From an uncultured Blautia sp. (GTDB taxonomy: Bacteria > Bacillota > Clostridia > Lachnospirales > Lachnospiraceae), in the NCBI GenBank assembly GCA_944384185.1, contig CALWSM010000011.1:1-33043 (forward strand): a stretch of DNA of 33,043 bases, given 5' to 3'. The notes beneath the pieces were generated by a model that had not been told where the DNA came from, searched no databases, and saw only the letters and a list, made by a program, of their open reading frames with translations. Below, one piece after another: positions 7,872 through 31,434 of the stretch (position 1 is the stretch's first letter; the number at the start of each line of letters is the position of its first letter). The position numbers were made by a program, and so were the translations under genes.

Positions 7872-8645
7872 ATGAGACCCATTATCATGGATTTTTCGGG
7901 AATTTACCGGGAAGAAGATTTTTGGAAAGACCAGGAGCCGGTATGGCTGGATTTCCGGAAGCTGCAGGGAGTAAACTGCTACTGTACGCCGGAAGCGGAA
8001 GAGGCGGTGAAGGAGAAGCTCCGCTGCCTGCCTGTCCGGGGGATCCATTTCCTGGATTCGGGGAATTATCATTATCTGACCAAATTCTGGCTGGAAAAGA
8101 TCCGTACCCCCTTTTCCCTTCTGGTCTTTGACAATCACACAGATATGCAGGAGGCAGCCTTTTTCGGACTGCTTTCCTGCGGAAGCTGGGCGGGAGAAGT
8201 GCTGGATGCCTGTGCGTCCCTCTCCCATATCTGTGTGGCGGGTCCTCCCCGGAAGGACTTTCAGGAATATAAGGGGAAGGCTTTAGAAAAGCTGACCGGG
8301 ATATGCAGGGAAGAGCTGGAAGAGAAAGGAGAAGAGCTCCTTCGGAAGTTTCTAAAGACCGATCCGGCTCTGCCCCTGTATATTTCCATAGATAAGGACA
8401 TACTGGGGAAAGAGGACGCCAGGACCAACTGGGATCAGGGAGAGCTTTCCCTGGAACAGCTTTTAAAATGGCTGGAGCTGGTCTTTGCGGAAAGAAAGGT
8501 TCTGGCTGTGGATATCTGTGGCGAGGATCCCCCGGATACAGCCAGACCTGTTTCGGGAGGAGATCTGGCTGTTAATGACCGGACAAACAGAAAAATATTG
8601 GAATTTGTAAAAAACAGGATGGAAAAGCAAGTTATACTTGACTAA
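7872..8645 (+). CDS. Arginase/ureohydrolase-fold family protein, divergent
   Basis: A 257-residue protein with the metal-ligand pattern of the arginase-agmatinase-formiminoglutamase fold: a histidine in GNYHYL (in place of the usual GGDHS), D-x-H-x-D in FDNHTDM, and D-x-D in SIDKDIL. These would supply the binuclear Mn ligands. Outside these motifs it is diverged and shorter than true arginases (about 300 residues), so hydrolysis of arginine or agmatine should not be assumed. A GAGG site nine bases before the ATG fits initiation. It follows the nitroreductase gene closely, and its last bases overlap the -35 of the cooS promoter. Confidence 0.75.
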   Translation: MRPIIMDFSGIYREEDFWKDQEPVWLDFRKLQGVNCYCTPEAEEAVKEKLRCLPVRGIHFLDSGNYHYLTKFWLEKIRTPFSLLVFDNHTDMQEAAFFGLLSCGSWAGEVLDACASLSHICVAGPPRKDFQEYKGKALEKLTGICREELEEKGEELLRKFLKTDPALPLYISIDKDILGKEDARTNWDQGELSLEQLLKWLELVFAERKVLAVDICGEDPPDTARPVSGGDLAVNDRTNRKILEFVKNRMEKQVILD

Positions 8646-8667
8646 TTTACTCCGGATTTGTTATGAT
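8638..8667 (+). promoter_or_regulatory. Sigma-A promoter of the cooS-like operon with overlapping dyad
   Basis: TTGACT (8638-8643) and TATGAT (8662-8667) are separated by 18 bases and lie 36 bases before the cooS start. A TGTTA-N6-TAACA dyad at 8659-8674 overlaps the -10. Its 5-6-5 spacing is that of CRP/FNR-family operators. The promoter is seen directly; the operator role is inference. Confidence 0.65.
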
Positions 8668-8702
8668 TTTAACATAGATTTATTACATAGGAGGAAGAAA
8701 AA

Positions 8703-10586
8703 ATGAACCAGTGTTATGGATGCAATACCTGTGCCAGCGCAGATAAGCCTTTGGAGGGATTTATCCGCAGCCTTCCCATGGAAACTTCCCATCACAGAGT
8801 GGAAGGACAGAGCACCAAGTGCGGTTTCGGTCTTCAGGGAGTATGCTGCCGCCTCTGCTCCAACGGCCCATGCCGGATCACGCCGAAAGCTCCGAGAGGG
8901 ATCTGCGGCGCTACCGCAGATGTGATCGTGGCAAGAAACTTCCTGCGGGCAGTCGCCAGCGGTTCCGGCTGCTATATCCACATTGTGGAGAATACAGCGC
9001 TGAACGTAAAAAAGACTGCTGAGATCAAAGGAGAGATCAAGGGGGAAAAATCCCTGGCAAAGCTGGCTGAGATCTTCGGCGTACAGGGAACAGACAAATG
9101 GGATACTGCAAAACAGGTGGCGCAGAAAGTTCTGGACGATCTGTATAAACCGGAATATGAAAAAATGGAACTGGTGGAGAAGATGGCTTACGGCCCCAGA
9201 TTTAAGAGATGGCAGGAGCTGGATATCCTTCCAGGAGGTGCAAAGGGCGAAGTATTCCACGGCGTTGTGAAATGCTCCACGAACCTCAATTCCGATCCTG
9301 TAGATATGTATACAGACTGTCTGAAGCTGGGTATTTCCACAGGTATCTACGGACTGACACTGACAAACCTGCTGAACGATGTGCTTTTAGGAGAGCCGGA
9401 GCTGCGCATGGCGCCGGTAGGCCTTCGTGTCATCGATCCGGATTATATCAACATTATGATCACAGGACATCAGCACACGATTTTCGTAGATCTTCAGGAG
9501 AGACTTACCTCCAAAGAAGCTGTTGCAAAAGCTCAGGCAGCAGGAGCCAAAGGCTTTAAGCTGGTTGGCTGTACCTGCGTGGGACAGGACCTTCAGCTTC
9601 GTGGTGCGCACTATACGGAAGTGTTTGACGGACATGCAGGAAATAATTATACCAGCGAGGCTGTTCTTGCCACAGGGGGCATTGACGCTGTCCTTTCTGA
9701 GTTTAACTGTACCCTGCCGGGTATCGAGCCAATCTGCGATGAGCTGATGATCAAACAGATCTGTCTGGATGACGTGGCTAAGAAAGCAAATGCAGAGCTG
9801 AAGCCATTCAAATTTGAAGAGAGAGAAAAGCAGAGCGAAGAGATCATTGATGAGATCGTAGAGGCTTATAAAGCAAGAAGGGGCAAAGTATCCATGAACC
9901 TTCAGCCGGAGCACGGAAACGACCATACCCTTACAGGGGTTTCCGAAGGCTCCTTAAAGGAATTCCTGGGCGGAAACTGGAAACCTCTCATTGATCTGAT
10001 CGTATCCGGAGATATCAAAGGCGTTGCCGGAGTGGTAGGATGCTCCAACCTGACAGCAGGAGGCCATGACGTGCTTACCGTAGACCTGGTGAAAGAGCTG
10101 ATCTCCAGAGACATTATCGTTCTCACTGCAGGATGTTCTTCAGGCGGAATTGAAAACTGCGGTCTGATGACCCCGGAAGCTGCAAAACTGGCAGGGCCAA
10201 AGCTCCGTGCAGTCTGTGAAAAACTGAATATCCCTCCGGTACTGAACTTCGGTCCATGTCTGGCTATCGGACGTCTGGAGATCGTTGCCACAGAACTGGC
10301 AGAAGCTCTGGGAATCGATATCCCCCAGCTTCCTCTGGTACTTTCCGCCGCACAGTGGCTGGAAGAGCAGGCTCTGGCAGACGGATGCTTCGGCCTGGCC
10401 CTGGGACTGCCTCTCCATTTAGGGCTGCCTCCATTTGTCACAGGAAGCAATCTGGCAGTGAAGCTCCTTACAGAGGATATGAAGAGCCTTACCGGCGGTC
10501 AGGTAATTATCAATCCCGACGCAAAGGCAAGCGCAGATATCCTGGAGAAGATCATTGAGGAGAAACGTGCAGGTTTAAATATTTAA
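8703..10586 (+). CDS. cooS: CooS-like anaerobic carbon monoxide dehydrogenase catalytic subunit, with altered active-site residues
   Basis: A 627-residue homologue of Ni,Fe CO dehydrogenase. D- and B-cluster cysteines are present (C40, C48, C49, C52, C57, C68). The C-cluster ligands align with those of CODH-II of Carboxydothermus: H256, C292, C336, C447, C478 and C519. However, the segment after the ICGAT block aligns without gaps and places Y91, I94, N97 and L100 where canonical enzymes have the proton-relay histidines 93, 96, 99 and 102. Q556 sits where the catalytic lysine 563 should be, and D560 where an isoleucine lines the CO pocket. The N-terminus carries an extra C4-x2-C7-x2-C10 motif. 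It is followed by a CooF-like ferredoxin and an FAD/NAD(P) oxidoreductase, and no acetyl-CoA synthase is nearby. Family membership is certain; CO oxidation activity is doubtful. Alignment was done by eye from memory. Confidence 0.9.
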   Translation: MNQCYGCNTCASADKPLEGFIRSLPMETSHHRVEGQSTKCGFGLQGVCCRLCSNGPCRITPKAPRGICGATADVIVARNFLRAVASGSGCYIHIVENTALNVKKTAEIKGEIKGEKSLAKLAEIFGVQGTDKWDTAKQVAQKVLDDLYKPEYEKMELVEKMAYGPRFKRWQELDILPGGAKGEVFHGVVKCSTNLNSDPVDMYTDCLKLGISTGIYGLTLTNLLNDVLLGEPELRMAPVGLRVIDPDYINIMITGHQHTIFVDLQERLTSKEAVAKAQAAGAKGFKLVGCTCVGQDLQLRGAHYTEVFDGHAGNNYTSEAVLATGGIDAVLSEFNCTLPGIEPICDELMIKQICLDDVAKKANAELKPFKFEEREKQSEEIIDEIVEAYKARRGKVSMNLQPEHGNDHTLTGVSEGSLKEFLGGNWKPLIDLIVSGDIKGVAGVVGCSNLTAGGHDVLTVDLVKELISRDIIVLTAGCSSGGIENCGLMTPEAAKLAGPKLRAVCEKLNIPPVLNFGPCLAIGRLEIVATELAEALGIDIPQLPLVLSAAQWLEEQALADGCFGLALGLPLHLGLPPFVTGSNLAVKLLTEDMKSLTGGQVIINPDAKASADILEKIIEEKRAGLNI

Positions 10587-10602: not shown

Positions 10603-11049
10603 ATGAAGAGAATAATGATAGACGCCTCGAAATGCGACGGCTGCAAGAGCTGCTCCGTGGCATGTATGCAGGCCCACAGAAAAGATGAAGGCGATGTCTA
10701 CACACTGGATCTCACAGACATTGCCAATGAGACCAGGAATTTTATCTACAAAAATCCTGACGGAAGCTACACCCCTGTATTTTGCAGACACTGCGACCAG
10801 CCGGAATGCGTCATGTCCTGTATGAGCGGGGCTCTTACGAAAGATCCTGAAACAGGGCATGTCCAGTATGATGAGAAGAAATGCGGTTCCTGTTTTATGT
10901 GCGTGATGAACTGTCCTTACGGCGTACTGAAACCCGACGACAGCACCCGCAGCAAAGTGATCAAGTGCGACTTCTGTATCGGTAAAGGCGAAGATCCAAG
11001 CTGCGTAAAGGCCTGTCCCAAGCAGGCCATCTGGGTTGAGGAGGTGTAG
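10603..11049 (+). CDS. CooF-like 4x[4Fe-4S] ferredoxin / electron-transfer subunit
   Basis: A 148-residue iron-sulfur protein of the DMSO-reductase-B/HycB/CooF type. Four cysteine groups can supply four [4Fe-4S] clusters: CDGCKSCSVAC, CRHCDQPECVMSC, CGSCFMCVMNC and CDFC with CVKAC near the end. There is no signal peptide, so it is cytoplasmic. It lies 16 bases after cooS and two bases before the oxidoreductase gene, which makes a single transcript likely. CooF proteins shuttle electrons between CooS and a partner; here the partner is presumably the adjacent flavoprotein. Confidence 0.93.
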   Translation: MKRIMIDASKCDGCKSCSVACMQAHRKDEGDVYTLDLTDIANETRNFIYKNPDGSYTPVFCRHCDQPECVMSCMSGALTKDPETGHVQYDEKKCGSCFMCVMNCPYGVLKPDDSTRSKVIKCDFCIGKGEDPSCVKACPKQAIWVEEV

Positions 11050-11051
11050 AG

Positions 11052-12290
11052 ATGGAATATGTGATCTTAGGAGCAGGAGCGGCAGGCATCACTGCGGCAA
11101 AGACGATCCGGAAAGCAGACAGTGAAGGAAAGATTACGGTGATCTCTACAGACACCCAGGTACATTCCAGATGTATGCTCCACAAATATCTGAGCCACGA
11201 AAGAGACGCCGCAGGGATCAGCTTTATCGATCCGGACTTTTTCGAGAAAAATCAGATCGCCTGGCTGCCGGGGAAAACGGTAAACCGTCTGGATACCCGG
11301 GGGAAAAAGGTTTATACCGACCAGGGAGAGGAAGTAAGCTATGACCGGCTCCTCATTGCCACAGGAGCAGAGAGCTTTATCCCTCCGGTGGGAAATTTAA
11401 GAGAAGCGGAAAATGTTTTCGGACTCCGCCATTTAAGAGACGCTCAGGCCATTGACGAGCTGGCAGAAGGGGCGGAGAATATTGTGATCATCGGTTCCGG
11501 TCTGGTAGGCCTGGATGCCGCTTACGGACTGATGGAGACCGGAAAGAAGGTATCCATTGTCGAGATGGCGGATCAGATCCTGCCGGTACAGCTGGACAAG
11601 ACGGCGGCATTTGAATACCAGAAACGCTTTGAAGAAGCGGGAGCCCGGTTCTATCTGGGAAGAAAGGCTGAGGACACCATTATGGGAGAGGATAAGAACA
11701 TTCATGAGATTATCCTGGATAATGGGGAAAAGCTGGCCTGCGACCTGATCATCGTGGCTGCCGGAGTCCGTTCTGCAGTGGCAGGAATGGAAGGAGAAGG
11801 GATCGTCATTGACCGTGGGATCAAGGTAGACGGTTATCTCCAGACCGGAGCGGAAGGGGTATATGCGGCGGGCGATGTCACCGGTCTTTCCGGTATCTGG
11901 CCAAACGCCCAGAAGCAGGGAGAGACAGCTGCTTTGAATATGTGCGGTTCTCACGTAGAGTACACAGACCGTTACGCCATAAAGAACACCATTAACTTTT
12001 TCGGACTGGTTTCCATGTGCGTAGGCGTGATCCTTCCCCAGGAAGGCGACGTAGTCATTGCCAGAGAGGATTCCAGAAACTACAAACGAGTGATTCTTCG
12101 GGATGGCAAAGTAGCCGGCGTTCTTCTCCAGGGAGATATTTCCCATGGCGGGATCTGGCAGTATCTGATCAAAAACCAGATTTCCATATCCGGGATCCGG
12201 AAAGATATCTTTGACCTGAACTTTGGAGATTTCTACGGGATCAAGGACAACGGGGAATACCAGTGGAGAATGAAAGCCATAAGCAGATAA
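11052..12290 (+). CDS. FAD-dependent NAD(P)H oxidoreductase (pyridine nucleotide-disulfide class, CODH-associated)
   Basis: A 412-residue flavoprotein of the NirB/rubredoxin-reductase-like group. The FAD-binding GAGAAG is at residues 7-12, the NAD(P)-binding GSGLVG at 148-153, and the second FAD motif VYAAGDVTG near residue 275. The SRCMLHKYL segment near residue 39 is typical of this subgroup. It starts two bases after the CooF stop and is the last gene of the operon. CooS-CooF-FAD/NAD oxidoreductase sets occur in other anaerobes and are thought to exchange electrons between NAD(P)H and the CooS site. Direction here is unknown. Confidence 0.9.
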   Translation: MEYVILGAGAAGITAAKTIRKADSEGKITVISTDTQVHSRCMLHKYLSHERDAAGISFIDPDFFEKNQIAWLPGKTVNRLDTRGKKVYTDQGEEVSYDRLLIATGAESFIPPVGNLREAENVFGLRHLRDAQAIDELAEGAENIVIIGSGLVGLDAAYGLMETGKKVSIVEMADQILPVQLDKTAAFEYQKRFEEAGARFYLGRKAEDTIMGEDKNIHEIILDNGEKLACDLIIVAAGVRSAVAGMEGEGIVIDRGIKVDGYLQTGAEGVYAAGDVTGLSGIWPNAQKQGETAALNMCGSHVEYTDRYAIKNTINFFGLVSMCVGVILPQEGDVVIAREDSRNYKRVILRDGKVAGVLLQGDISHGGIWQYLIKNQISISGIRKDIFDLNFGDFYGIKDNGEYQWRMKAISR

Positions 12291-15273: not shown

Positions 15274-16710
15274 ATGAGTAGTACAGCACAAAGCTTGGCA
15301 GGCAAAAGAATCTATTCTTTGCTTGATGAGAACAGTTTTGTTGAAATTGGCGGCTGTGTGACCGCAAGAAATACAGATTTCAACTTATCTGAAAAAGAAA
15401 CGCCGGCAGATGGTGTCATTACCGGATACGGCGTCATCGACGGCAGCCTGGTGTATGTTTACAGCCAGGATGCATCTGTGTTAAACGGATCTGTAGGCGA
15501 GATGCATGCAAAGAAGATCGTACATCTGTATGATCTGGCTATGAAGACAGGAGCTCCGGTGATCGGTCTGATCGACTGCGCAGGTCTCAGACTGCAGGAG
15601 GCTACAGACGCTTTGAACGCTTTCGGTGAAATTTACACAAAACAGGTTATGGCTTCAGGGGTGATCCCTCAGATCACCGGGATTTTCGGAACCTGTGGCG
15701 GCGGTCTGGCAGTAGTTCCGGCTTTGACGGATTTTACCTTCATGGAGAAGGATAAGGGCAGATTGTTTGTAAATTCTCCAAACGCTCTGGAAGGAAACGA
15801 AATTTCCAAATGTGATACTTCCAGTGCTCAGTACCAGAGCCAGAAAGCAGGTCTTGTTGACGTTCTGGGCAGCGAGGAGGAAATCCTGGCACAGATGAGA
15901 CAGCTGGTTTCCATGCTGCCTTCCAACTATGAAGATAACTCTGCATATACCGAATGCACAGACGATCTGAACCGGGTGTGCCCGGAGCTGGCAAACTGTG
16001 TGGGAGATACTTCCATCGCACTGTCCCAGATCGCAGACAACAATGAATTCTTTGAGGTAAAGACAGAGTACGCAAAAGATATGGTAACCGGCTTTATCCG
16101 CTTAAACGGCGCTACCGTAGGCTGTGTGGCAAACAGAAGCGAGATCTACAATGAAGAAGGAGAAAAGACAGACTCCTTTGACAATGTATTATCTGCAAGA
16201 GGCTGCAAGAAAGCGGCAGAATTTGTAAAATTCTGCGATGCATTCGAGATCCCTGTGCTGACCCTTACCAATGTGAAAGGATATAAGGCCACAAAATGCT
16301 CCGAAGCCAATATGGCGAGAAATGCGGCGGAGCTGACAAACGCATTTATCAGCGCCACTGTCCCGAAAGTAAACGTGGTGATCGGAGAAGCCTTCGGAAG
16401 CGCTTATCTGACCATGAACAGCAAATCTACCGGAGCGGATATGGTATATGCCTGGCCTTCTGCCCAGATCGGCATGATGGACGCAAAACTGGCGGCAAAG
16501 ATCATGTATGCCGGATCCGACGTACAGACCATCAATGAGAAAGCGGCGGAATACGCCATGCTCCAGTCCAGCGCTCTTTCAGCAGCGAAGAGAGGCTATG
16601 TAGATACCATTATAGAGCCTCTGGATACCAGAAAATATGTCATCGGTGCTTTTGAAATGTTATTCACAAAGAGAGAAAATCGTCCAGACAAAAAACACGG
16701 CACGGTTTAA
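15274..16710 (+). CDS. Biotin-dependent acyl-CoA-type carboxyltransferase subunit (MmdA/PccB/GcdA superfamily), divergent
   Basis: A 478-residue carboxyltransferase of the crotonase fold, predicted to move CO2 between biotin and an acyl-CoA. Family blocks include LLDENSFVEIGG, GVITGYGVIDG, NGSVGEMHAKKI, ASGVIPQITGIFG and GADMVYAWPSAQIG. It is about 30 residues shorter than usual at the N-terminus. The two oxyanion-hole loops differ from the textbook forms: D101-C-A-G-L-R106 instead of DSGGAR, and G142-G-G-L-A-V-V-P instead of AGGAVYSP. It heads an operon with a gamma subunit, biotin carrier, OadB and OadA, and is preceded by a CGGAGGG site. Substrate (methylmalonyl-CoA, malonyl-CoA, glutaconyl-CoA or other) cannot be decided from sequence. 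Confidence 0.85.
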   Translation: MSSTAQSLAGKRIYSLLDENSFVEIGGCVTARNTDFNLSEKETPADGVITGYGVIDGSLVYVYSQDASVLNGSVGEMHAKKIVHLYDLAMKTGAPVIGLIDCAGLRLQEATDALNAFGEIYTKQVMASGVIPQITGIFGTCGGGLAVVPALTDFTFMEKDKGRLFVNSPNALEGNEISKCDTSSAQYQSQKAGLVDVLGSEEEILAQMRQLVSMLPSNYEDNSAYTECTDDLNRVCPELANCVGDTSIALSQIADNNEFFEVKTEYAKDMVTGFIRLNGATVGCVANRSEIYNEEGEKTDSFDNVLSARGCKKAAEFVKFCDAFEIPVLTLTNVKGYKATKCSEANMARNAAELTNAFISATVPKVNVVIGEAFGSAYLTMNSKSTGADMVYAWPSAQIGMMDAKLAAKIMYAGSDVQTINEKAAEYAMLQSSALSAAKRGYVDTIIEPLDTRKYVIGAFEMLFTKRENRPDKKHGTV

Positions 16711-16724
16711 GCGAGGTGAAGCAT

Positions 16725-17510
16725 ATGAAGCAGATAGGAAAAAAATTAGGAGGACTCGTATCCTTAGGTATCCTGACCCTTTCTATGACAGGCTGTATGG
16801 GCTCTCAGGAAGAGATCAATGAGACCGTCATGAACAACCTGTACAGCACCACGACCTCTACCATGGAAACCCTTGTCACTTATGACAGCGCTACCATGGA
16901 ACAGGCCATGGAAGAGAATCCCAATATGGACGATTTTACCAAGAGCGCTTTTCAGTCTTGGATGGATTCTTCCGAAGAGTTAGGTGCTTATGTGGGATTT
17001 GAGAACGTAGATCCGGAAGACGCAGTCAGGAAAGACGGAAGCAACTATGTGGTGGATCTGGAAGCAGAATTTGAAAACGGCACGGCTGACGTGGAGATGG
17101 TTTACGACAGCAAGCTGAACGCAGAGAGCATCGGTTTCAGTCCTCAATATACTATGGGCGAAAAAATGCAGTCTGCAGTCATGAATACAATTGTCGGTCT
17201 TGGCACAGTATTTATTATTCTGTTCTTCCTGTGCTATGTTATTGATGTTTTAAAATTTGTCCCCGGCTGGGTAGAAGCTGTGGGAAAGAAATTTAAAAAG
17301 CAGCAGCCGGAAGAAGCTCAGGAAACTGTCAGGACAGCACAGCCGGTCCCGGCTCCTGCAGCGGCTCCTGAAATCCCGGAAGAAGGAGAACCGGGTGATC
17401 TGGAACTGGCAGCCGTTATCGCAGCGGCCATAGCAGCTTCTGAAAATACTTCACCGGACAGCTTTGTAGTCCGCTCTATCAGAAAATCAAAGAAAAATAA
17501 TTGGCGTTAG
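16725..17510 (+). CDS. OadG-like gamma subunit with N-terminal lipoprotein domain
   Basis: A 261-residue membrane subunit of a sodium-pump decarboxylase. It starts with a lipoprotein-type signal (LTLSMTGC, Cys24), followed by about 120 polar residues expected outside the cell. One membrane segment is centred near residue 160 (VGLGTVFIILFFLCYVIDVLKFV). A Pro/Ala-rich linker leads to a C-terminal cytoplasmic piece with LELAAVIAAAIAAS and VVRSIR, typical of OadG/gamma proteins in this family. Canonical OadG is under 100 residues, so the extracytoplasmic domain is an extension. ATG 16725 is chosen over GTG 16716 because GAGGTG lies six bases upstream. It sits 14 bases after the carboxyltransferase gene. 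In pumps of this type gamma holds the complex together. Confidence 0.8.
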   Translation: MKQIGKKLGGLVSLGILTLSMTGCMGSQEEINETVMNNLYSTTTSTMETLVTYDSATMEQAMEENPNMDDFTKSAFQSWMDSSEELGAYVGFENVDPEDAVRKDGSNYVVDLEAEFENGTADVEMVYDSKLNAESIGFSPQYTMGEKMQSAVMNTIVGLGTVFIILFFLCYVIDVLKFVPGWVEAVGKKFKKQQPEEAQETVRTAQPVPAPAAAPEIPEEGEPGDLELAAVIAAAIAASENTSPDSFVVRSIRKSKKNNWR

Positions 17511-17535
17511 CTGAAGATCATAGGAGGAAAAGAAT

Positions 17536-17907
17536 ATGAAATCTTATACAATCACTGTAAATGGCGTTGCATATGACGTAACAGTAGAAGAAGGCGCAGG
17601 TAATGGAGCAGCGCCTGCACCGGCTCCCAAAGCCGCTCCCAAAGCCGCTCCAAAGGCAGCACCTGCACCGGCAGCACCTGCGGCACCGGCCGGAGGCATT
17701 GAAGTAAAGGCTTCCGTACCGGGAAAGGTATGTAAGATCGAGGCAAACGTAGGACAGGTTGTGAAGCCTGGAGATCCTATCGTTGTTCTGGAAGCCATGA
17801 AGATGGAAATTCCCGTTGTAGCACCTCAGGACGGCACAGTGGCCAGCATTAACGTGGCAGTAGGAGACGCTGTGGAAAACGGCGATATCCTGGCTACCAT
17901 GAACTAA
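17536..17907 (+). CDS. Biotin carboxyl carrier protein of the decarboxylase/transcarboxylase complex
   Basis: A 123-residue carrier with three parts. An N-terminal strand region (MKSYTITVNGVAYDVTVEE) is followed by a flexible Ala/Pro/Lys linker at about residues 24-54 containing repeated AAPK units. The C-terminal biotinyl domain ends in the EAMKM motif, with K89 as the biotin site. It carries CO2 between the carboxyltransferases and the membrane OadB subunit. Because OadA in this operon lacks its own biotin domain, this protein probably serves both carboxyltransferases. A TAGGAGGAAAAG site precedes the ATG. Confidence 0.95.
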   Translation: MKSYTITVNGVAYDVTVEEGAGNGAAPAPAPKAAPKAAPKAAPAPAAPAAPAGGIEVKASVPGKVCKIEANVGQVVKPGDPIVVLEAMKMEIPVVAPQDGTVASINVAVGDAVENGDILATMN

Positions 17908-17953
17908 ACAGCGCAGGCTGTGTTAAAGTCAAAAAAATACGGGAGGTAAAAAC

Positions 17954-19102
17954 ATGACAAGCATTACAGATGTGGTGTCAAATCTTATCGGTCAGACCGC
18001 TTTTATGAATTTGACATTTGGAAATCTGATTATGATTTTAGTGGCGTTTGTGTTCCTGTTCCTCGCCATTAAAATGGGTTTTGAACCCCTTTTGCTGGTG
18101 CCCATCGCATTCGGTATGCTTCTGGTAAATATTTATCCGGATATCATGATCACAGCGGAAGAGGCTTCAAATGGAACGCCGGGACTTCTGCACGTTTTCT
18201 ATATCCTGGATGAGTGGAGCGTTCTGCCCTCTCTGATCTTCCTGGGAGTAGGAGCGATGACAGACTTCGGTCCCCTGATCGCAAATCCCAAGAGCTTCCT
18301 TATGGGAGCTGCGGCACAGTTAGGTATTTATGTGGCCTATTTCCTGGCCATCTTTATGGGCTTCAACGGAAAGGCAGCAGCAGCCATCTCCATTATCGGA
18401 GGCGCCGACGGCCCTACCTCTATTTTCCTGGCAGGAAAGCTGGGCCAGTCCGGACTTATGGGAGCCATCGCTGTGGCGGCTTATTCCTATATGTCCCTGG
18501 TTCCTATTATCCAGCCGCCTATTATGAAACTTCTTACCACAGAGGAAGAGAGAAAGATCAAGATGGAGCAGCTCCGTCCGGTATCCAAACTGGAAAAGAT
18601 CCTGTTCCCCATCGTTATCACTGTAGTAGTATGTCTGATCCTGCCTACCACCGCTCCTCTGGTTGGTATGCTGATGCTTGGAAACCTGTTCCGTGAGTCC
18701 GGCGTGGTAAAACAGCTGACAGAGACGGCTTCCAATGCGCTTATGTATATCGTCGTTATCCTTCTGGGAACTTCTGTAGGCGCTTCTACAAGCGCAGAGG
18801 CTTTCCTGAAGATGGATACTCTCAAGATCGTTGTCCTGGGTCTGGTGGCCTTTGCCTTCGGTACTGCAGGCGGCGTGCTCCTGGGCAAGCTGATGTGCAA
18901 GCTGTCCCACGGCAAGATCAATCCGCTGATCGGTTCCGCCGGCGTATCCGCCGTGCCTATGGCAGCCCGTGTATCTCAGAAAGTGGGAGCAGAAGCGGAT
19001 CCTACCAACTTCCTGCTGATGCACGCCATGGGACCGAACGTTGCCGGAGTTATCGGTACAGCCGTAGCTGCGGGAACCTTTATGGCGATCTTCGGCGTGT
19101 AA
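17954..19102 (+). CDS. Na+-translocating carboxybiotin decarboxylase, beta subunit (OadB/MmdB/GcdB)
   Basis: A 382-residue polytopic membrane protein that decarboxylates carboxybiotin and couples this to Na+ export. The conserved functional block [14 protein letters not shown] near residue 145 contains the key aspartate. Other typical blocks are [18 protein letters not shown] and the C-terminal [14 protein letters not shown] ... [13 protein letters not shown] with Na+-site residues. About nine to eleven membrane segments are expected. It follows the biotin carrier by 46 bases with a GGGAGG site and precedes oadA by about 33 bases. Length is slightly below that of Klebsiella OadB. Confidence 0.95.
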
Positions 19103-19135
19103 GGGATTAGAAGAATTTAGATGGAGGAAAAAAAG

Positions 19136-20548
19136 ATGGCAGAAGTAGTAAAAAAACCTATTAAAATTACTGAGACGATCCTGCGTGACGCTCATCAGTC
19201 TCTGATCGCCACAAGAATGACGACAGAGCAGATGCTGCCGATCGTAGATAAACTGGATAAAGTGGGTTATTACTCTGTGGAGTGCTGGGGCGGCGCAACT
19301 TTTGACGCTTCTCTGCGTTTCCTGAAGGAAGACCCATGGGAAAGACTTCGTAAATTCCGGGACGGATTTAAGAATACAAAGCTTCAGATGCTTTTCAGAG
19401 GACAGAATATCTTAGGATATCGCCCCTATGCAGATGACGTAGTGGAGTATTTTGTACAGAAGTCCATTGCAAACGGTATTGATATCATCCGTATCTTTGA
19501 CTGTATGAATGATATCAGAAATCTGCAGACTGCAGTAAAAGCCGCAAACAAAGAAAAAGGACATGCACAGGTGGCTATGTCTTATACTTTAGGCGAGGCC
19601 TACACGCTGGACTACTGGGTGGAACTGGCTAAGAAGATCGAGGATATGGGTGCAAACTCCATCTGTATCAAGGATATGGCAGGCCTGCTCCTTCCATATA
19701 CGGCTACAGAGCTGGTAACCGCCTTGAAAGAGGCCGTGGATATTCCGATCCAGCTTCATTCACATTATACTTCCGGCGTGGCTTCCATGACTTATCTGAA
19801 GGCCGTGGAGGCAGGGGTAGATGTGATCGATACGGCCATGTCTCCTTTCGCTCTGGGTACTTCCCAGCCGGCTACAGAGGTTATGGTAGAAACCTTTAAG
19901 GGAACTCCTTATGACACAGGCTTTGACCAGAAGCTGTTATCTGAGATCGCAGATTACTTCCGTCCGATCCGCGACGAGGCTCTGGAATCCGGCCTGCTCA
20001 ATCCAAAGAACCTGGGCGTAAATATCAAGACGCTTCTGTATCAGGTGCCGGGCGGTATGCTTTCCAACCTGACTTCACAGCTGAAAGAACAGCATGCAGA
20101 AGATAAATATTATGAAGTTCTGGAAGAGGTTCCAAGAGTCCGCAAAGATCTGGGCGAGCCCCCGCTGGTTACTCCGTCTTCCCAGATCGTGGGAACTCAG
20201 GCGGTATTCAATGTGCTGATGGGCGAGCGCTATAAGATGGTGACAAAGGAAACCAAAGATGTTTTAAGCGGCAAATACGGCGCTACTGTAAAACCGTTCA
20301 ATCCGGAAGTACAGAAGAAGTGCATCGGCGACGGAGAAGTGATCACCTGCCGTCCGGCAGACCTTCTGGAGCCGGAGCTGGATACTTTAAGAGGAGAAAT
20401 GGCCCAGTGGTCTGAGCAGGAGGAGGACGTACTGACTTATGCTCTGTTCCCACAGGTTGCCACAGACTTCTTTAAGTACAGAGAGGCACAGCAGACCAAG
20501 GTAGACCCAAAGGAAGCTGATACAGAAAACGGAGTATATCCGGTATAA
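19136..20548 (+). CDS. oadA: Oxaloacetate decarboxylase/pyruvate carboxylase-type carboxyltransferase subunit (OadA/PycB, no biotin domain)
   Basis: A 470-residue carboxyltransferase that interconverts oxaloacetate and pyruvate using biotin. The TIM-barrel HMGL-like domain is clear: ETILRDAHQSL with metal ligand D18, CIKDMAG with K179 (the lysine that is carbamylated), and LHSHYTSG with H208 and H210. A PYC_OADA domain follows. It ends without the C-terminal biotinyl domain of classical OadA, which is supplied separately in this operon. ATG 19136 is preferred over ATG 19121 because GGAGG (19123-19127) is then correctly spaced; the upstream start would place that site inside the gene. It is the last gene of the operon and a terminator follows. 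Confidence 0.93.
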   Translation: MAEVVKKPIKITETILRDAHQSLIATRMTTEQMLPIVDKLDKVGYYSVECWGGATFDASLRFLKEDPWERLRKFRDGFKNTKLQMLFRGQNILGYRPYADDVVEYFVQKSIANGIDIIRIFDCMNDIRNLQTAVKAANKEKGHAQVAMSYTLGEAYTLDYWVELAKKIEDMGANSICIKDMAGLLLPYTATELVTALKEAVDIPIQLHSHYTSGVASMTYLKAVEAGVDVIDTAMSPFALGTSQPATEVMVETFKGTPYDTGFDQKLLSEIADYFRPIRDEALESGLLNPKNLGVNIKTLLYQVPGGMLSNLTSQLKEQHAEDKYYEVLEEVPRVRKDLGEPPLVTPSSQIVGTQAVFNVLMGERYKMVTKETKDVLSGKYGATVKPFNPEVQKKCIGDGEVITCRPADLLEPELDTLRGEMAQWSEQEEDVLTYALFPQVATDFFKYREAQQTKVDPKEADTENGVYPV

Positions 20549-27828: not shown

Positions 27829-29151
27829 ATGGCGTTTTTAACCTTTCGAGGCGGCGTTCATCCCTATGATGGAAAAGAGCTGTCAAAGGAAAAGCCGGTC
27901 CGGGAGCTTCTTCCCGGAAAAGAATTGATCTATCCTCTGTCACAGCATATCGGCGCTCCGGCGAAACCGATCGTGGCCAAGGGGGATCATGTTCTGGCAG
28001 GTCAGAAGATTGCAGAGATGGGAGGATTCGTTTCTGCAAATATTCACGCTTCCGTATCAGGAACCGTGAAAGAAATTAAAAAAGTCAGAAATAATGTAGG
28101 AGCCATGGTGGACGCCATCGTGGTGGAAAATGATGAAAAGTATGAAACTGTCGGGTTTCAGAAAGCGGATTCTTTAGAGGCGCTGTCCAAAGAGGAGATC
28201 CTGGAGCGAATCAAAGAAGGCGGCGTAGTGGGAATGGGAGGCGCAGGTTTCCCCACTCATGTGAAGCTGGCTCCCAAGGAACCGGAGAAGATTGAATATG
28301 TTCTGGTAAACGGTGCGGAGTGCGAGCCTTATCTTACTTCTGACTACAGAAGGATGCTGGAACAGCCGGAATGGATCATCGGGGGCTTAAAATGCATTCT
28401 GAAACTTTTCGACAATGCCAAGGGTTATATCTGCATTGAAGATAACAAGCCGGACTGTATTGCAAAAATATCAGAGATGGTAAAAAACGAGCCGAAGATA
28501 GAAGTACAGACTCTGAAAACAAAGTATCCCCAGGGAGCTGAGCGGTGTCTGATCTATGCGGTCAGCGGCAGGGAGATCAATTCCTCCATGCTTCCGGCAG
28601 ACGCCGGCTGTGTGGTAGATAATATTGATACGGTTTGTGCCATCTATCGGGCAGTTATGGCAGGAGAACCGGTCATGGACCGTATCGTCACCGTAACCGG
28701 CGAAGCCGTGGCAGATCCCTGCAACCTTAAGGCGAAAACAGGAACCTCCTTTGCGGAACTTCTGGAAGCTGCAGGAGGATTGAAGCAGCCTGCCAAGAAG
28801 ATTATTTCCGGCGGCCCTATGATGGGCTTTGCCATGTTCGATTATCATGTTCCTGTTGTAAAGACCTCTTCGGCCATGCTGTGCATGACAGAAGATGATA
28901 TCTCAGAGAAAGAGCCTACAGCCTGCATTAACTGCGGCAGATGTGTAAACGCCTGCCCGGCCAGACTGGTGCCTTCCAGGCTGGCTACCTATTCGGAACA
29001 CGGCCAGGCGGAGCTGTTTGAGAAACATCATGGGATGGAGTGTGTGGAATGTGGCTGCTGCAGCTTTGCCTGTCCGGCTAAACGTCCCCTGACCCAGTCC
29101 ATGCGGTCCATGAGAAAAATGGTTATGGCAAACCGCAGAAAACCGAAATAG
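27829..29151 (+). CDS. rnfC: Rnf complex subunit C (NADH/ferredoxin-linked electron input module)
   Basis: A 440-residue peripheral subunit of the ferredoxin:NAD+ oxidoreductase (Rnf). The N-terminal barrel-like region (GGFVSANIHASVSGTV) is followed by the NuoF-like nucleotide/FMN block VGMGGAGFPTHVKLAP near residue 140. Two [4Fe-4S] cluster motifs lie near the C-terminus: CINCGRCVNACP and CVECGCCSFACP. RnfC carries the NAD(H) site. The gene has an AAAGGAGGG site and begins a six-gene operon in the order C-D-G-E-A-B, standard for Clostridia. The complex couples ferredoxin oxidation to Na+ or H+ export. Confidence 0.97.
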   Translation: MAFLTFRGGVHPYDGKELSKEKPVRELLPGKELIYPLSQHIGAPAKPIVAKGDHVLAGQKIAEMGGFVSANIHASVSGTVKEIKKVRNNVGAMVDAIVVENDEKYETVGFQKADSLEALSKEEILERIKEGGVVGMGGAGFPTHVKLAPKEPEKIEYVLVNGAECEPYLTSDYRRMLEQPEWIIGGLKCILKLFDNAKGYICIEDNKPDCIAKISEMVKNEPKIEVQTLKTKYPQGAERCLIYAVSGREINSSMLPADAGCVVDNIDTVCAIYRAVMAGEPVMDRIVTVTGEAVADPCNLKAKTGTSFAELLEAAGGLKQPAKKIISGGPMMGFAMFDYHVPVVKTSSAMLCMTEDDISEKEPTACINCGRCVNACPARLVPSRLATYSEHGQAELFEKHHGMECVECGCCSFACPAKRPLTQSMRSMRKMVMANRRKPK

Positions 29152-29163
29152 GAGGAGAACGTC

Positions 29164-30123
29164 ATGAGTGAATTATTACACGTATCATCTTCCCCTCATG
29201 TAAGGTCGAAGGTGGACACCAGCAGTATCATGCTTACTGTTATCATTGCATTACTGCCTGCTGCATTGTTCGGAATTTATAATTTCGGACCCCATGCTCT
29301 GCTGCTGATCCTGGTTACTATCGCAACCTGTGTGGCAACAGAAGCAGTTTATGAAAAGATCGTACATAAAAAACTTACTGTGAAGGATTACAGCGCAGTG
29401 GTTACGGGACTTCTGCTGGCACTGAACCTTCCGCCTAAGGCGCCATGGTGGATCGCTGTGATCGGCGGCGTTTTTGCGATTTTAGTAGTGAAGCAGCTTT
29501 TCGGCGGCCTGGGACAGAATTTTATGAACCCGGCTCTTGCAGCAAGATGCTTCCTGCTGATCTCCTTTACAGGGAGAATGACCGATTTCACCGTACCAGG
29601 CGGCGCCTGGGGGAATATTGTGGATACTGTGTCAGGAGCCACCCCTCTTGCGGCGATGAAATCCGGAGAAACTGTAGATCTGTTAAGCCTTTTTATCGGA
29701 AATATCCAGGGTACCATCGGTGAGACATCAGCTCTTGCTATTCTGATCGGCGCTGCCATCCTCCTGCTCAGAGGGATCATTGACTTCCGGATCCCGGTTG
29801 CCTATCTCCTTACCTTCAGTGTATTTGCCCTGATCTTCGGGGGACATGGACTGGATTTCTATTATCTGCTTTGCCAGCTCTGCGGCGGCGGACTGATGCT
29901 GGGCGCCTGGTTTATGGCAACGGATTACGTTACGTCTCCCATTACAAGCAAGGGGCGGATCGTATACGGTATCTGCCTTGGTATTTTCACAGGGCTTTTC
30001 CGTATCTTCGGAGGATCAGCGGAGGGCGTTTCCTATGCGATCATCTTCTGTAACCTGATGGTTCCGCTTATCGAGCGCTTTACCATGCCGGCAGCCTTCG
30101 GAAAAGGAGGTAAGAAAGCATGA
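29164..30123 (+). CDS. rnfD: Rnf complex subunit D (membrane flavoprotein)
   Basis: A 319-residue membrane subunit related to NqrB, with about eight to ten membrane segments. The flavinylation motif S157-G-A-T160 lies in DTVSGATPLAAM; the threonine would carry covalently attached FMN. Other conserved blocks are GGLGQNFMNPALAARCFLL and ATDYVTSPIT. It starts 12 bases after rnfC and its stop overlaps the rnfG start (ATGA at 30120-30123), so translation is coupled. ApbE, needed for flavin attachment, is not in this window. Confidence 0.96.
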   Translation: MSELLHVSSSPHVRSKVDTSSIMLTVIIALLPAALFGIYNFGPHALLLILVTIATCVATEAVYEKIVHKKLTVKDYSAVVTGLLLALNLPPKAPWWIAVIGGVFAILVVKQLFGGLGQNFMNPALAARCFLLISFTGRMTDFTVPGGAWGNIVDTVSGATPLAAMKSGETVDLLSLFIGNIQGTIGETSALAILIGAAILLLRGIIDFRIPVAYLLTFSVFALIFGGHGLDFYYLLCQLCGGGLMLGAWFMATDYVTSPITSKGRIVYGICLGIFTGLFRIFGGSAEGVSYAIIFCNLMVPLIERFTMPAAFGKGGKKA

Positions 30124-30728
30124 AAAATACAATCATAAAAGATACAGTCATACTGACCCTGATCACTTTAGTATCCGGCGGTCTTCTGGGACTGGTTTAT
30201 CAGGTTACCAAAGAACCCATCGCCCAGCAGGAAGAAATGGCCAAACAGGAAGCATATCAGGCAGTCTTTGAAGACGCAGATTCCTTTGAGGTCTGCGTGG
30301 AAGCGGGAGATACAGAGATCGCCCAGTATCTTGCCGATAACGGATTTACAGCCCAGACGGTCAACGAAGTCATGGAGGCTAAGGACGCTTCAGGAGAAAC
30401 CATCGGCTATGCCCTGAATATGACCACTTCGGAAGGCTATGGCGGAGATATTTCTTTCTCTATGGGCGTGCAGCTTGACGGAACCTTAAACGGCATTTCC
30501 ATTCTGACCATCAACGAGACGGCAGGTCTTGGAATGAACGCCACAGAGGATTCTTTTAAGGGGCAGTTCAGCGATAAAAATGTGGAATCTTTCACAGTGA
30601 CCAAAACAGGGGCTTCCGCAGACAATGAGATCAATGCGATCAGTGGTGCGACCATTACTTCAGAGGCCATTACAGGCGGTGTAAACGCCGGTCTGTGCGC
30701 CTTCAATTATGTAAAGGAGGGAGAATAA
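30120..30728 (+). CDS. rnfG: Rnf complex subunit G (covalent FMN subunit)
   Basis: A 202-residue subunit with one N-terminal membrane segment (DTVILTLITLVSGGLLGLVYQVT) and an extracytoplasmic FMN-binding domain. The flavinylation motif is S175-G-A-T178 within ISGATITSEAI. The ETAGLGMNA block is typical of the FMN-binding family. It moves electrons between RnfD and the other membrane subunits. The next gene starts one base after its stop, inside a GGAGGGAGAATAAG initiation region. Confidence 0.96.
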   Translation: MKNTIIKDTVILTLITLVSGGLLGLVYQVTKEPIAQQEEMAKQEAYQAVFEDADSFEVCVEAGDTEIAQYLADNGFTAQTVNEVMEAKDASGETIGYALNMTTSEGYGGDISFSMGVQLDGTLNGISILTINETAGLGMNATEDSFKGQFSDKNVESFTVTKTGASADNEINAISGATITSEAITGGVNAGLCAFNYVKEGE

Positions 30729-30729
30729 G

Positions 30730-31434
30730 ATGAAAGCAAATACACCTGCAGAACGTTTGTTTAACGGTATCATTAAAGAGAATCCCACCTTTGTACTGGT
30801 TTTGGGGATGTGTCCCACTCTGGCGGTCACCACGGCAGCTATAAACGGTATCGGCATGGGACTTACCACTACGGTGGTCCTTGCTATGTCCAATCTGTTT
30901 ATTTCCCTTTTGCGGAAGATCATTCCGGATAAAGTCCGTATGCCTGCATATATCGTAGTGGTTGCGTCTTTCGTAACTATTGTGCAGCTGCTTTTACAGG
31001 GCTTTATCCCAAGCCTTTATGATTCTCTGGGACTTTATATCCCTCTGATCGTGGTAAACTGCATTATCCTGGGAAGAGCGGAAGCTTATGCTTCTCAGAA
31101 CGGGCCGGTAGCTTCTATCTTTGACGGCATCGGAATGGGGCTTGGCTTTACCATGTCCATTACCATTCTGGCGGCTTTCCGTGAGCTCATCGGCGCAGGA
31201 ACGGTTTTCGGCTTCCAGATCATGCCGGCGGCTTATGAGCCTGCGACGATTTTCATTCTGGCTCCCGGCGCTTTCTTCGTGCTGGCTTTCCTGGCTGCAG
31301 TCCGGGCAAAGATCATGGAGAAGAAACCAAAAGAAGAGCAGAAGCCGGTGCACTGTATGGAAGGCGGCTGCGCTTCCTGCAGCAATGAGGCCTGCAGCGG
31401 AAAATTCTACGACAATACGGTAGTAAAGAAGTAA
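30730..31434 (+). CDS. rnfE: Rnf complex subunit E with Cys-rich C-terminal tail
   Basis: A 234-residue integral membrane subunit (NqrD/RnfE family) with about six membrane segments. Family blocks include NPTFVLVLGMCPTLAVTTAA and IPLIVVNCIILGRAEAYAS, the latter holding one of the membrane cysteines shared with RnfA for an iron-sulfur centre. After the last helix the protein has a polar tail (KKPKEEQKPVH) with four cysteines at 209, 214, 217 and 222, spaced C-x4-C-x2-C-x4-C, which could bind metal. It is followed by rnfA after 14 bases. Confidence 0.95.
   Translation: MKANTPAERLFNGIIKENPTFVLVLGMCPTLAVTTAAINGIGMGLTTTVVLAMSNLFISLLRKIIPDKVRMPAYIVVVASFVTIVQLLLQGFIPSLYDSLGLYIPLIVVNCIILGRAEAYASQNGPVASIFDGIGMGLGFTMSITILAAFRELIGAGTVFGFQIMPAAYEPATIFILAPGAFFVLAFLAAVRAKIMEKKPKEEQKPVHCMEGGCASCSNEACSGKFYDNTVVKK

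Follow-up and report, generated by a model that had tools for sequence, protein, structure and literature searches.

A clade C CooS protein from an uncultured Blautia sp. keeps the C-cluster ligands, lacks the acid-base pair of CO dehydrogenase and probably has another redox role

Ni,Fe carbon monoxide dehydrogenases (CODHs) use a histidine and a lysine as acid-base catalysts (Inoue 2019, PMC6344411). CooS-V of Carboxydothermus hydrogenoformans (group D-1; Protein Data Bank (PDB) entry 7b7q) holds a hybrid cluster attributed to the replacement of Cys295 by Glu; its Glu556 coordinates Fe3, its Asn337 hydrogen-bonds the cluster water, and neither CO oxidation nor CO2 reduction was detected, only a slow reduction of hydroxylamine (kcat 0.13 s-1, 20 M-1 s-1) below that of the Rhodospirillum rubrum CODH (Jeoung 2022, PMC9311411). 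CooS-V gives electron paramagnetic resonance signals of hybrid type at g 1.98, 1.90 and 1.80 (PMC9311411). In the hybrid cluster protein (HCP), the matching Glu is a seventh cluster ligand that is important for activity, and CODH-II has a non-ligand His at this position (Fujishiro and Takaoka 2023, PMC10502027). Group C-1 of the CooS proteins has been described by a type II D-cluster, complete C-cluster ligands, a Tyr/Gln pair and an N-terminal motif of 2-4 Cys (Inoue 2019, Table 2), with FNOR (an FAD/NAD(P)-binding oxidoreductase), a COG0437 CooF and an NsrR/IscR-like regulator as neighbours (PMC6344411). NarB/NarC-like partners and Rrf2 genes had been noted for such cooS genes before, together with the remark that bacteria having this type alone are not known acetogens (Matson 2011, PMC3082573); the clade letters of that study stem from its own tree, and their correspondence to clade C is our reading. 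Here, we describe a cooS gene of this kind in a 33,043-nucleotide stretch of DNA (hereafter the window) from an uncultured Blautia sp. (assembly GCA_944384185.1, contig CALWSM010000011.1). Databases label its product a carbon monoxide dehydrogenase; it probably has another redox job instead.

The window protein belongs to the CooS fold family. It scores 759.2 bits against TIGR01702 (anaerobic CODH catalytic subunit; curated cut-off 478), which speaks for membership of the family, the name of the model being no test of activity. Against the HCP model TIGR01703 it reaches 26 bits (cut-off 360.8), although it shares the Pfam family PF03063 with HCPs of classes I-III. A phmmer search of the PDB placed CooS-V at the top (343 bits), followed by a Thermococcus CODH (6t7j, 338), CODH-IV (6elq, 305) and CODH-II (1su6, 251), with alignments that span residues 37-626 for the best match and 3-626 for the R. 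rubrum CODH. The AlphaFold2 model, a metal-free monomer, has a mean predicted local distance difference test score (pLDDT) of 74.1, below 50 for residues 1-68, and a predicted template modelling score (pTM) of 0.79. Since it is too coarse for side chains, we used its fold match alone and read no pocket geometry from it; CooS-V came first (TM-score 0.86-0.87, 32-33% identity) with CODHs closely following, so that CooS-V is the nearest solved structure in both sequence and predicted fold. The D-cluster pattern of type II, C-(X)7-13-CC, is present as C40-X7-C48-C49.

To compare active sites, we aligned 157 distinct sequences with MAFFT (the window protein, six PDB sequences and the collected loci) and numbered positions by CODH-II (1su6). 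Two groups were drawn from this alignment by the residues at 93 and 563, so that these two columns define them: clade C with Tyr/Gln (100 distinct sequences) and canonical with His/Lys (13). A sequence-only reading of this gene, made by ungapped comparison, had held that the C-cluster ligands are kept and that the histidine ladder, the catalytic lysine and the isoleucine of the CO pocket are replaced. The alignment bears out the ligands, all six of which are in place (Table 1), and likewise Gln556 at K563 and Asp560 at I567; Tyr91, not His, stands at H93. Each ladder substitution is also confirmed, including L100 for H102, but the ladder as a whole proves a weaker argument than it had seemed. 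Only 1 of the 13 canonical sequences has His at 99 and only 6 have it at 102, and the argument therefore counts for H93 and H96 alone.

The two groups differ well beyond the acid-base pair. H96, D219, Q332, D528, E558 and I567 are each found in 13/13 canonical sequences. In 21 additional His/Lys CODHs, H96, Q332 and I567 are again invariant, and D219 is retained in 18, with Asn in the other 3. Among the 100 clade C sequences, N97, T213, N335, Q551, E554 and D560 (window numbering) occur in every one, position 94 is Ile or Val (51/49), and Ala replaces D528 (window position 521) in 97; Tyr at 93 is found in 100 and Gln at 563 in 99, the single other sequence (L067, Pro) being a fragment at a contig end. 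Clade C has thus exchanged ionisable residues at six positions: H93Y, H96I/V, D219T, D528A, E558Q and K563Q. The active-site core of the clade is near-invariant, and its substitutions are not the product of chance or decay. CODH-II variants H93A, K563A, H96D and I567A are present in the PDB; a name-based literature search found no paper matching them. Beside Y91, C90 (8970-8972) is a Cys in 100/100 clade C sequences and missing from the other aligned groups; it may serve as an additional ligand of the cluster or as a redox thiol. At the N-terminus, Cys 4, 7 and 10 are the sole Cys of the first 16 residues in 69 of the 100 sequences and the others vary, a count affected by start sites that were chosen mechanically.

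The suggested analogy to CooS-V holds in part. E554 of the window protein aligns with Glu556 of CooS-V, and through it with HCP Glu494, and N335 aligns with Asn337; the fold, the Tyr at H93 and the Asp at I567 are also common to both. However, C292 aligns with Glu295, so that the exchange to which the CooS-V cluster is attributed is absent; the Glu that precedes the Lys position by two residues, a cluster ligand in CooS-V, is present. CooS-V further has Lys558 and His96 where the window protein has Gln556 and Ile94, and its Cys41 serves a [2Fe-2S] D-cluster where the window has Gly43. In Inoue's network, the CooS-V group has mainly other neighbours, with FNOR in some genomes only (PMC6344411). 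Compared with CODH-II (clade F), the window protein is alike in fold, in the six C-cluster ligands and in the B- and D-cluster Cys, but lacks H93, H96, D219, D528, E558, K563 and I567 and has E554 and N335; unlike HCP, it carries a Cys at the CooS-V Glu295 position. By alignment, then, the clade C site is a full C-cluster ligand set combined with a Glu of hybrid-cluster type. Tyr/Lys and Asn/Lys groups show the same combination, but retain the Lys and His96. Our literature search, which covered text and not Inoue's figures, found no statement of this combination for clade C.

Under the residue definition of Inoue 2019, the window protein falls into group C-1 of clade C. It resembles the group, whose representative is WP_039226206, in D-cluster type, C-cluster ligands, Tyr/Gln pair, N-terminal Cys motif, CooF and FNOR neighbours and association with an NsrR/IscR-like regulator, and we found nothing that sets it apart; rrf2 does not adjoin the window gene, and its operon has its own operator and promoter. 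We built a tree by a quick method with a midpoint root, flagging long branches; its root and the order of clades C and D are unsure, and it was made without Inoue's reference accessions. In this tree the Tyr/Gln group is monophyletic (34 rows, SH-like approximate likelihood ratio test (SH-aLRT) 100), and the window protein falls outside the separate canonical CO-oxidising group (12 rows, support 99). Three Lys-bearing groups are also separate: Glu295/Tyr, which includes CooS-V, Asn/Lys and Tyr/Lys. Broad phylum scans, in which residues were read for all fetched loci (four rows of one scan had no locus), gave identities to L151 of at least 58% for Tyr/Gln sequences and at most 46% for Tyr/Lys sequences. 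The Tyr/Lys group itself (L154-L163; 10 distinct sequences, 38-42% identical to the window CooS) has full C-cluster ligands with the hybrid-type Glu and the Asp, and is another uncharacterised intermediate.

The window gene is no exception that had escaped notice, for the Tyr/Gln pair was already reported for all of clade C (PMC6344411). The observation was correct but known: the pair, the CooF/FNOR partners and the Rrf2-type regulators are all in print. What we add are six ionisable replacements rather than two, statistics on an operator, and 22 of 48 genomes that have clade C alone and no true CooC match.

The operator was examined in 81 loci (the window and 80 others). Of these, 70 have a CooF-like gene and 76 have FNOR. 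In 38, a gene of ~133 amino acids (aa) lies directly upstream of cooS and belongs to one cluster, two scanned members of which are both Rrf2; the C-terminal Cys spacings of the proteins in this cluster (n=39) are 4-8 in 11, 6-8 in 5 and variants otherwise. No rrf2 adjoins cooS in the window, and a palindrome covers the -35 box of the cooS promoter instead (Table 1). The operator core ACTAWWWTAGT, allowing at most 1 mismatch, occurs in 44/81 upstream regions against ~2 expected from shuffled sequence. Because close relatives are not independent, we also counted after thinning to <90% identity, and found 12/31 against 0.73 expected. The published IscR Type-1 consensus (PMC6599224), at up to 5/25 mismatches, matched 35/80 upstream regions and 0/1600 shuffles. 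As judged by its sequence, an operator of this type suggests a sensor of Fe-S status rather than of CO. The association of Rrf2 with cooS is itself already in print; an operator of this type upstream of cooS is not named in the titles and abstracts from our literature search, which covered full texts in part.

Attempts to extend this regulation within Blautia gave little. An orphan Rrf2 of the window genome (L176) is 45% identical to the cooS-adjacent Rrf2 of Ruminococcus torques, but its own promoter has 9 mismatches to the operator, no better than shuffles, and so we do not claim autoregulation. Across the genome, the operator pattern gave 4 matches, of which the cooS site is the best, against 16 for the reversed control, so that no wider regulon is readable. 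Upstream of cooS, 7872-8645 encodes a 257-aa protein with a weak Arginase-family match (26.7 bits, cut-off 22); as an operon partner this gene was rejected, for it is directly upstream in only 8/81 loci, namely the window and close Blautia-type relatives.

We then asked which other CODH genes accompany clade C, surveying 48 of the 80 genomes behind the loci, an author-chosen set of near relatives of one protein. In 22 of the 48, the clade C gene is the single TIGR01702 match; a 23rd (G564) has two clade C genes and nothing else, its second match (683 bits) being clade C by its residues. The residues of the 31 other matches, with that of G564 among them, show one or two His/Lys CODHs, with Ile567, in 18 genomes, and a CooS-V-type CODH (Tyr/Glu295/Lys) in 7; in G546 and G547, both among the 18, an additional ~500-bit match carries Asp in place of a cluster Cys, like Inoue's clade B. 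The window genome has two His/Lys CODHs as well (L002, L003), and an orthologue of its clade C protein at at least 91% identity is found in 19 of 20 same-genus genomes. The 22 include a complete genome record (L097) and isolates (L063, L071, L102), so their status is not merely a matter of incomplete metagenome-assembled genomes. Full-length CooC is found in exactly the 18 His/Lys-CODH genomes, 67-99% identical to the CooC of the window genome's CODH/acetyl-CoA synthase (ACS) cluster (L178); the remaining 30 have none, apart from weak 31-34% matches in three. This absence is partly the absence of the CODH/ACS cluster, because the window genome's CooC sits in that cluster. In some hosts, CODH metallation is possible without CooC. 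HCP is present in 32/48 genomes, with no sign of replacement by clade C, and we rejected the notion that one substitutes for the other.

Table 1. Features of the cooS operon in the window (residue numbers are those of the window protein)
Feature	Position	Strand	Details	Basis
Predicted operator, IscR Type-1-like	8634..8658	+	ATACTTGACTAATTTACTCCGGATT; overlaps -35	4/25 mismatches to published consensus
Promoter, sigma-70-like	8638..8667	+	-35 TTGACT (8638-8643), 18-base spacer, -10 TATGAT (8662-8667)	inspection
cooS, clade C group C-1	8703..10586	+	CODH/prismane-family catalytic subunit, 627 aa, ATG start; AGGAGG at 8689-8694, 8 bases 5' of ATG	
N-terminal CxxCxxC motif	8712..8732	+	C4, C7, C10; extra motif of group C-1	
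Y91, I94, N97	8973..8993	+	replace CODH-II H93, H96, H99	alignment
H256	9468..9470	+	cluster ligand (CODH-II H261)	alignment
C292	9576..9578	+	cluster ligand (CODH-II C295; Glu295 in CooS-V)	alignment
N335 and C336	9705..9710	+	N335 at CooS-V Asn337 position (Gln in canonical CODHs); C336 cluster ligand (CODH-II C333)	alignment
C447	10041..10043	+	cluster ligand (CODH-II C446)	alignment
C478	10134..10136	+	cluster ligand (CODH-II C476)	alignment
C519	10257..10259	+	cluster ligand (CODH-II C526)	alignment
Q551, E554, Q556, D560	10353..10382	+	Q551 for E558; E554 at HCP Glu494/CooS-V Glu556; Q556 for K563; D560 for I567	
CooF-like ferredoxin subunit	10603..11049	+	148 aa, 16 Cys in four 4Fe-4S-type motifs	
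FNOR	11052..12290	+	Pyr_redox_2 + Rubredoxin_C, 412 aa	

Collectively, these data are consistent with a model, to which we assign a probability of about 0.5, in which clade C CooS is a hybrid-cluster-like reductase that is fed by NAD(P)H through FNOR and CooF, serves in redox or nitrosative stress and is controlled by an Fe-S Rrf2 protein. NAD(P)H would reduce the flavin of FNOR; the CooF-like ferredoxin, with its four clusters, would hand the electrons on to the D- and B-clusters in a CooS dimer, from where they would reach an active-site cluster built on the six C-cluster ligands and Glu554. Without the acid-base pair and four other ionisable residues, this site would be mainly a reductase rather than an efficient CO oxidase. 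Its substrate may be a small oxidised molecule, such as a nitrogen oxide, an oxygen species or another electrophile. An Fe-S-binding repressor of the Rrf2/IscR type would hold transcription down at the promoter and let go when its cluster is damaged or absent. Two published observations fit this picture: O2 exposure raises the C-1 operon in Clostridium ljungdahlii (as cited in PMC6344411), and an acsA mutant of Clostridium autoethanogenum with both cooS genes intact does not oxidise CO and gains 2.03 mmol CO (PMC4895105). The FNOR-linked CODH of the latter species is C-2 in Inoue (PMC6344411). A reductase was also what the sequence-only reading had put forward as a possibility, and it is our favoured reading, though not with the ligand set of CooS-V.

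Several observations weigh against this model. The CooS of Thermoanaerobacter kivui (TKV_c08080), clade C as named by Bohm and Land (PMC13056359) rather than from its residues, has a CO-oxidising activity of 13.9 U/mg, and growth on CO requires its gene (PMC8683389); cooS1 mutants of C. autoethanogenum grow worse on CO (PMC4895105). The first of these also tempers the argument from the missing acid-base groups: their loss is clade-wide, but slow CO oxidation has been reported for a protein called clade C. Ni may still bind, because all six [Ni-4Fe-4S] ligands are kept, and the loss of D219 is weaker evidence than the other changes, because Asn takes its place in 3 of 21 additional His/Lys CODHs. 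A good operator core is missing from 37/81 upstream regions. In Clostridioides difficile, an operon of cooS, cooF and an NAD/FAD oxidoreductase, likened to this one by gene make-up and not by clade, is reportedly reduced in a fur mutant (PMC6311696), which is a misfit with simple derepression on Fe-S loss. Finally, clade C CooS is no plain substitute for HCP, because 14 of the 22 clade-C-only genomes also have HCP.

The serious rival is a genuine, if slow, Ni,Fe-CODH. Such an enzyme would use CooF and FNOR to link the oxidation of CO, or the reduction of CO2, to NAD(P), and would help the cell to scavenge or tolerate CO or to balance its redox state, with Tyr/Gln and neighbouring water as an inefficient version of the His/Lys relay. 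We consider it less probable than the reductase but well within reach, because the sole purified enzyme called clade C does oxidise CO slowly: CooSF1 of T. kivui gave 13.9 U/mg with CO and methyl viologen against 214 for AcsAB (PMC8683389). The six retained ligands fit such an enzyme, as does the usual reading of FNOR contexts as CO-to-NAD(P) (PMC6344411, PMC11338639). In C. autoethanogenum the evidence cuts both ways, as knocking out cooS1 impaired growth on CO but improved it on H2/CO2, and the acsA knockout produced CO, yet the latter does not oxidise CO with cooS1 and cooS2 in place (PMC4895105). The purified T. kivui enzyme is likewise open to a second reading, for its 65-kDa band would not, by our inference, resolve contamination by the 67-kDa AcsA; Bohm and Land have called this example unrepresentative (PMC13056359). 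Where clade C stands alone CooC is not found, and the operator suggests that Fe-S status rather than CO is sensed, neither of which favours a CODH.

A role in redox sensing or regulation instead of metabolism, which Bohm and Land 2026 suggested for clades C and D (PMC13056359), is improbable. Their survey found co-occurrence with active CODHs and regulators, and the clade C knockout changes growth while autotrophy continues (PMC4895105). A sensor does not, however, account for ferredoxin and flavoprotein genes in most loci or for a near-invariant active-site core, and 22/48 genomes have no other CODH to regulate. These clade-C-only genomes agree with Matson and sit uneasily with the auxiliary role that Bohm and Land derived from co-occurrence (PMC13056359), though they are near relatives of one protein. 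Less probable still is a hydroxylamine reductase like CooS-V, the possibility first raised for this gene. The Tyr, Asn, Glu and Asp positions shared with the closest solved structure speak for it, but the window protein keeps Cys292 where CooS-V has Glu295 and has lost the Lys that CooS-V keeps. Moreover, even CooS-V reduces hydroxylamine only very slowly, which makes this substrate a weak guide to the function of clade C. Returning to the NAD(P)H-fed reductase, its boldest form has a chimera cluster new to the CODH and HCP structures covered by our reading, with the six C-cluster ligands, the hybrid-cluster Glu and the water-binding Asn, perhaps free of Ni. CooF/FNOR would connect the enzyme to NAD(P)H, an Fe-S Rrf2 repressor would release its expression, and it would serve widely in the gut as a reductase under nitrosative or oxidative stress; as a whole, we find this tentative and rather doubtful.

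Two other gene groups lie in the window. At 15274-20548, an operon encodes two different carboxyltransferase subunits, one like methylmalonyl-CoA decarboxylase alpha (under its cut-off) and one like oxaloacetate decarboxylase alpha (over its cut-off), with a biotin carrier, one Na+-pumping beta subunit and a gamma subunit that has a weak, sub-threshold DUF3887-like stretch; it is possibly a dual decarboxylase or a Na+-linked transcarboxylase. The Rnf complex genes rnfC, rnfD, rnfG and rnfE are found at 27829-31434, ~15 kb downstream of the CooS operon, and are a possible link between NADH and ferredoxin in the same genome. As for the Nar genes, NarB and NarC of the Clostridium perfringens nitrate reductase are homologous to the partner genes of this cooS type, whereas NarA has no similarity to CODH according to Matson 2011.

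The warning that annotation as CO dehydrogenase would mislead is a fair one. We found clade C genes in gut Lachnospiraceae and in insect-gut type spirochaetes, and of the 1380 putative CODH genes in a gut survey, 179 belong to clade C (PMC11338639). If clade C CooS is indeed a gut stress reductase, then surveys now count such a reductase as CO utilisation. The combination of C292, E554 and N335 without H93, H96, D219, D528, E558 and K563, together with an IscR-type operator and genomes that have clade C as their only CODH and no CooC, would narrow the question of clade C function to a few experiments.

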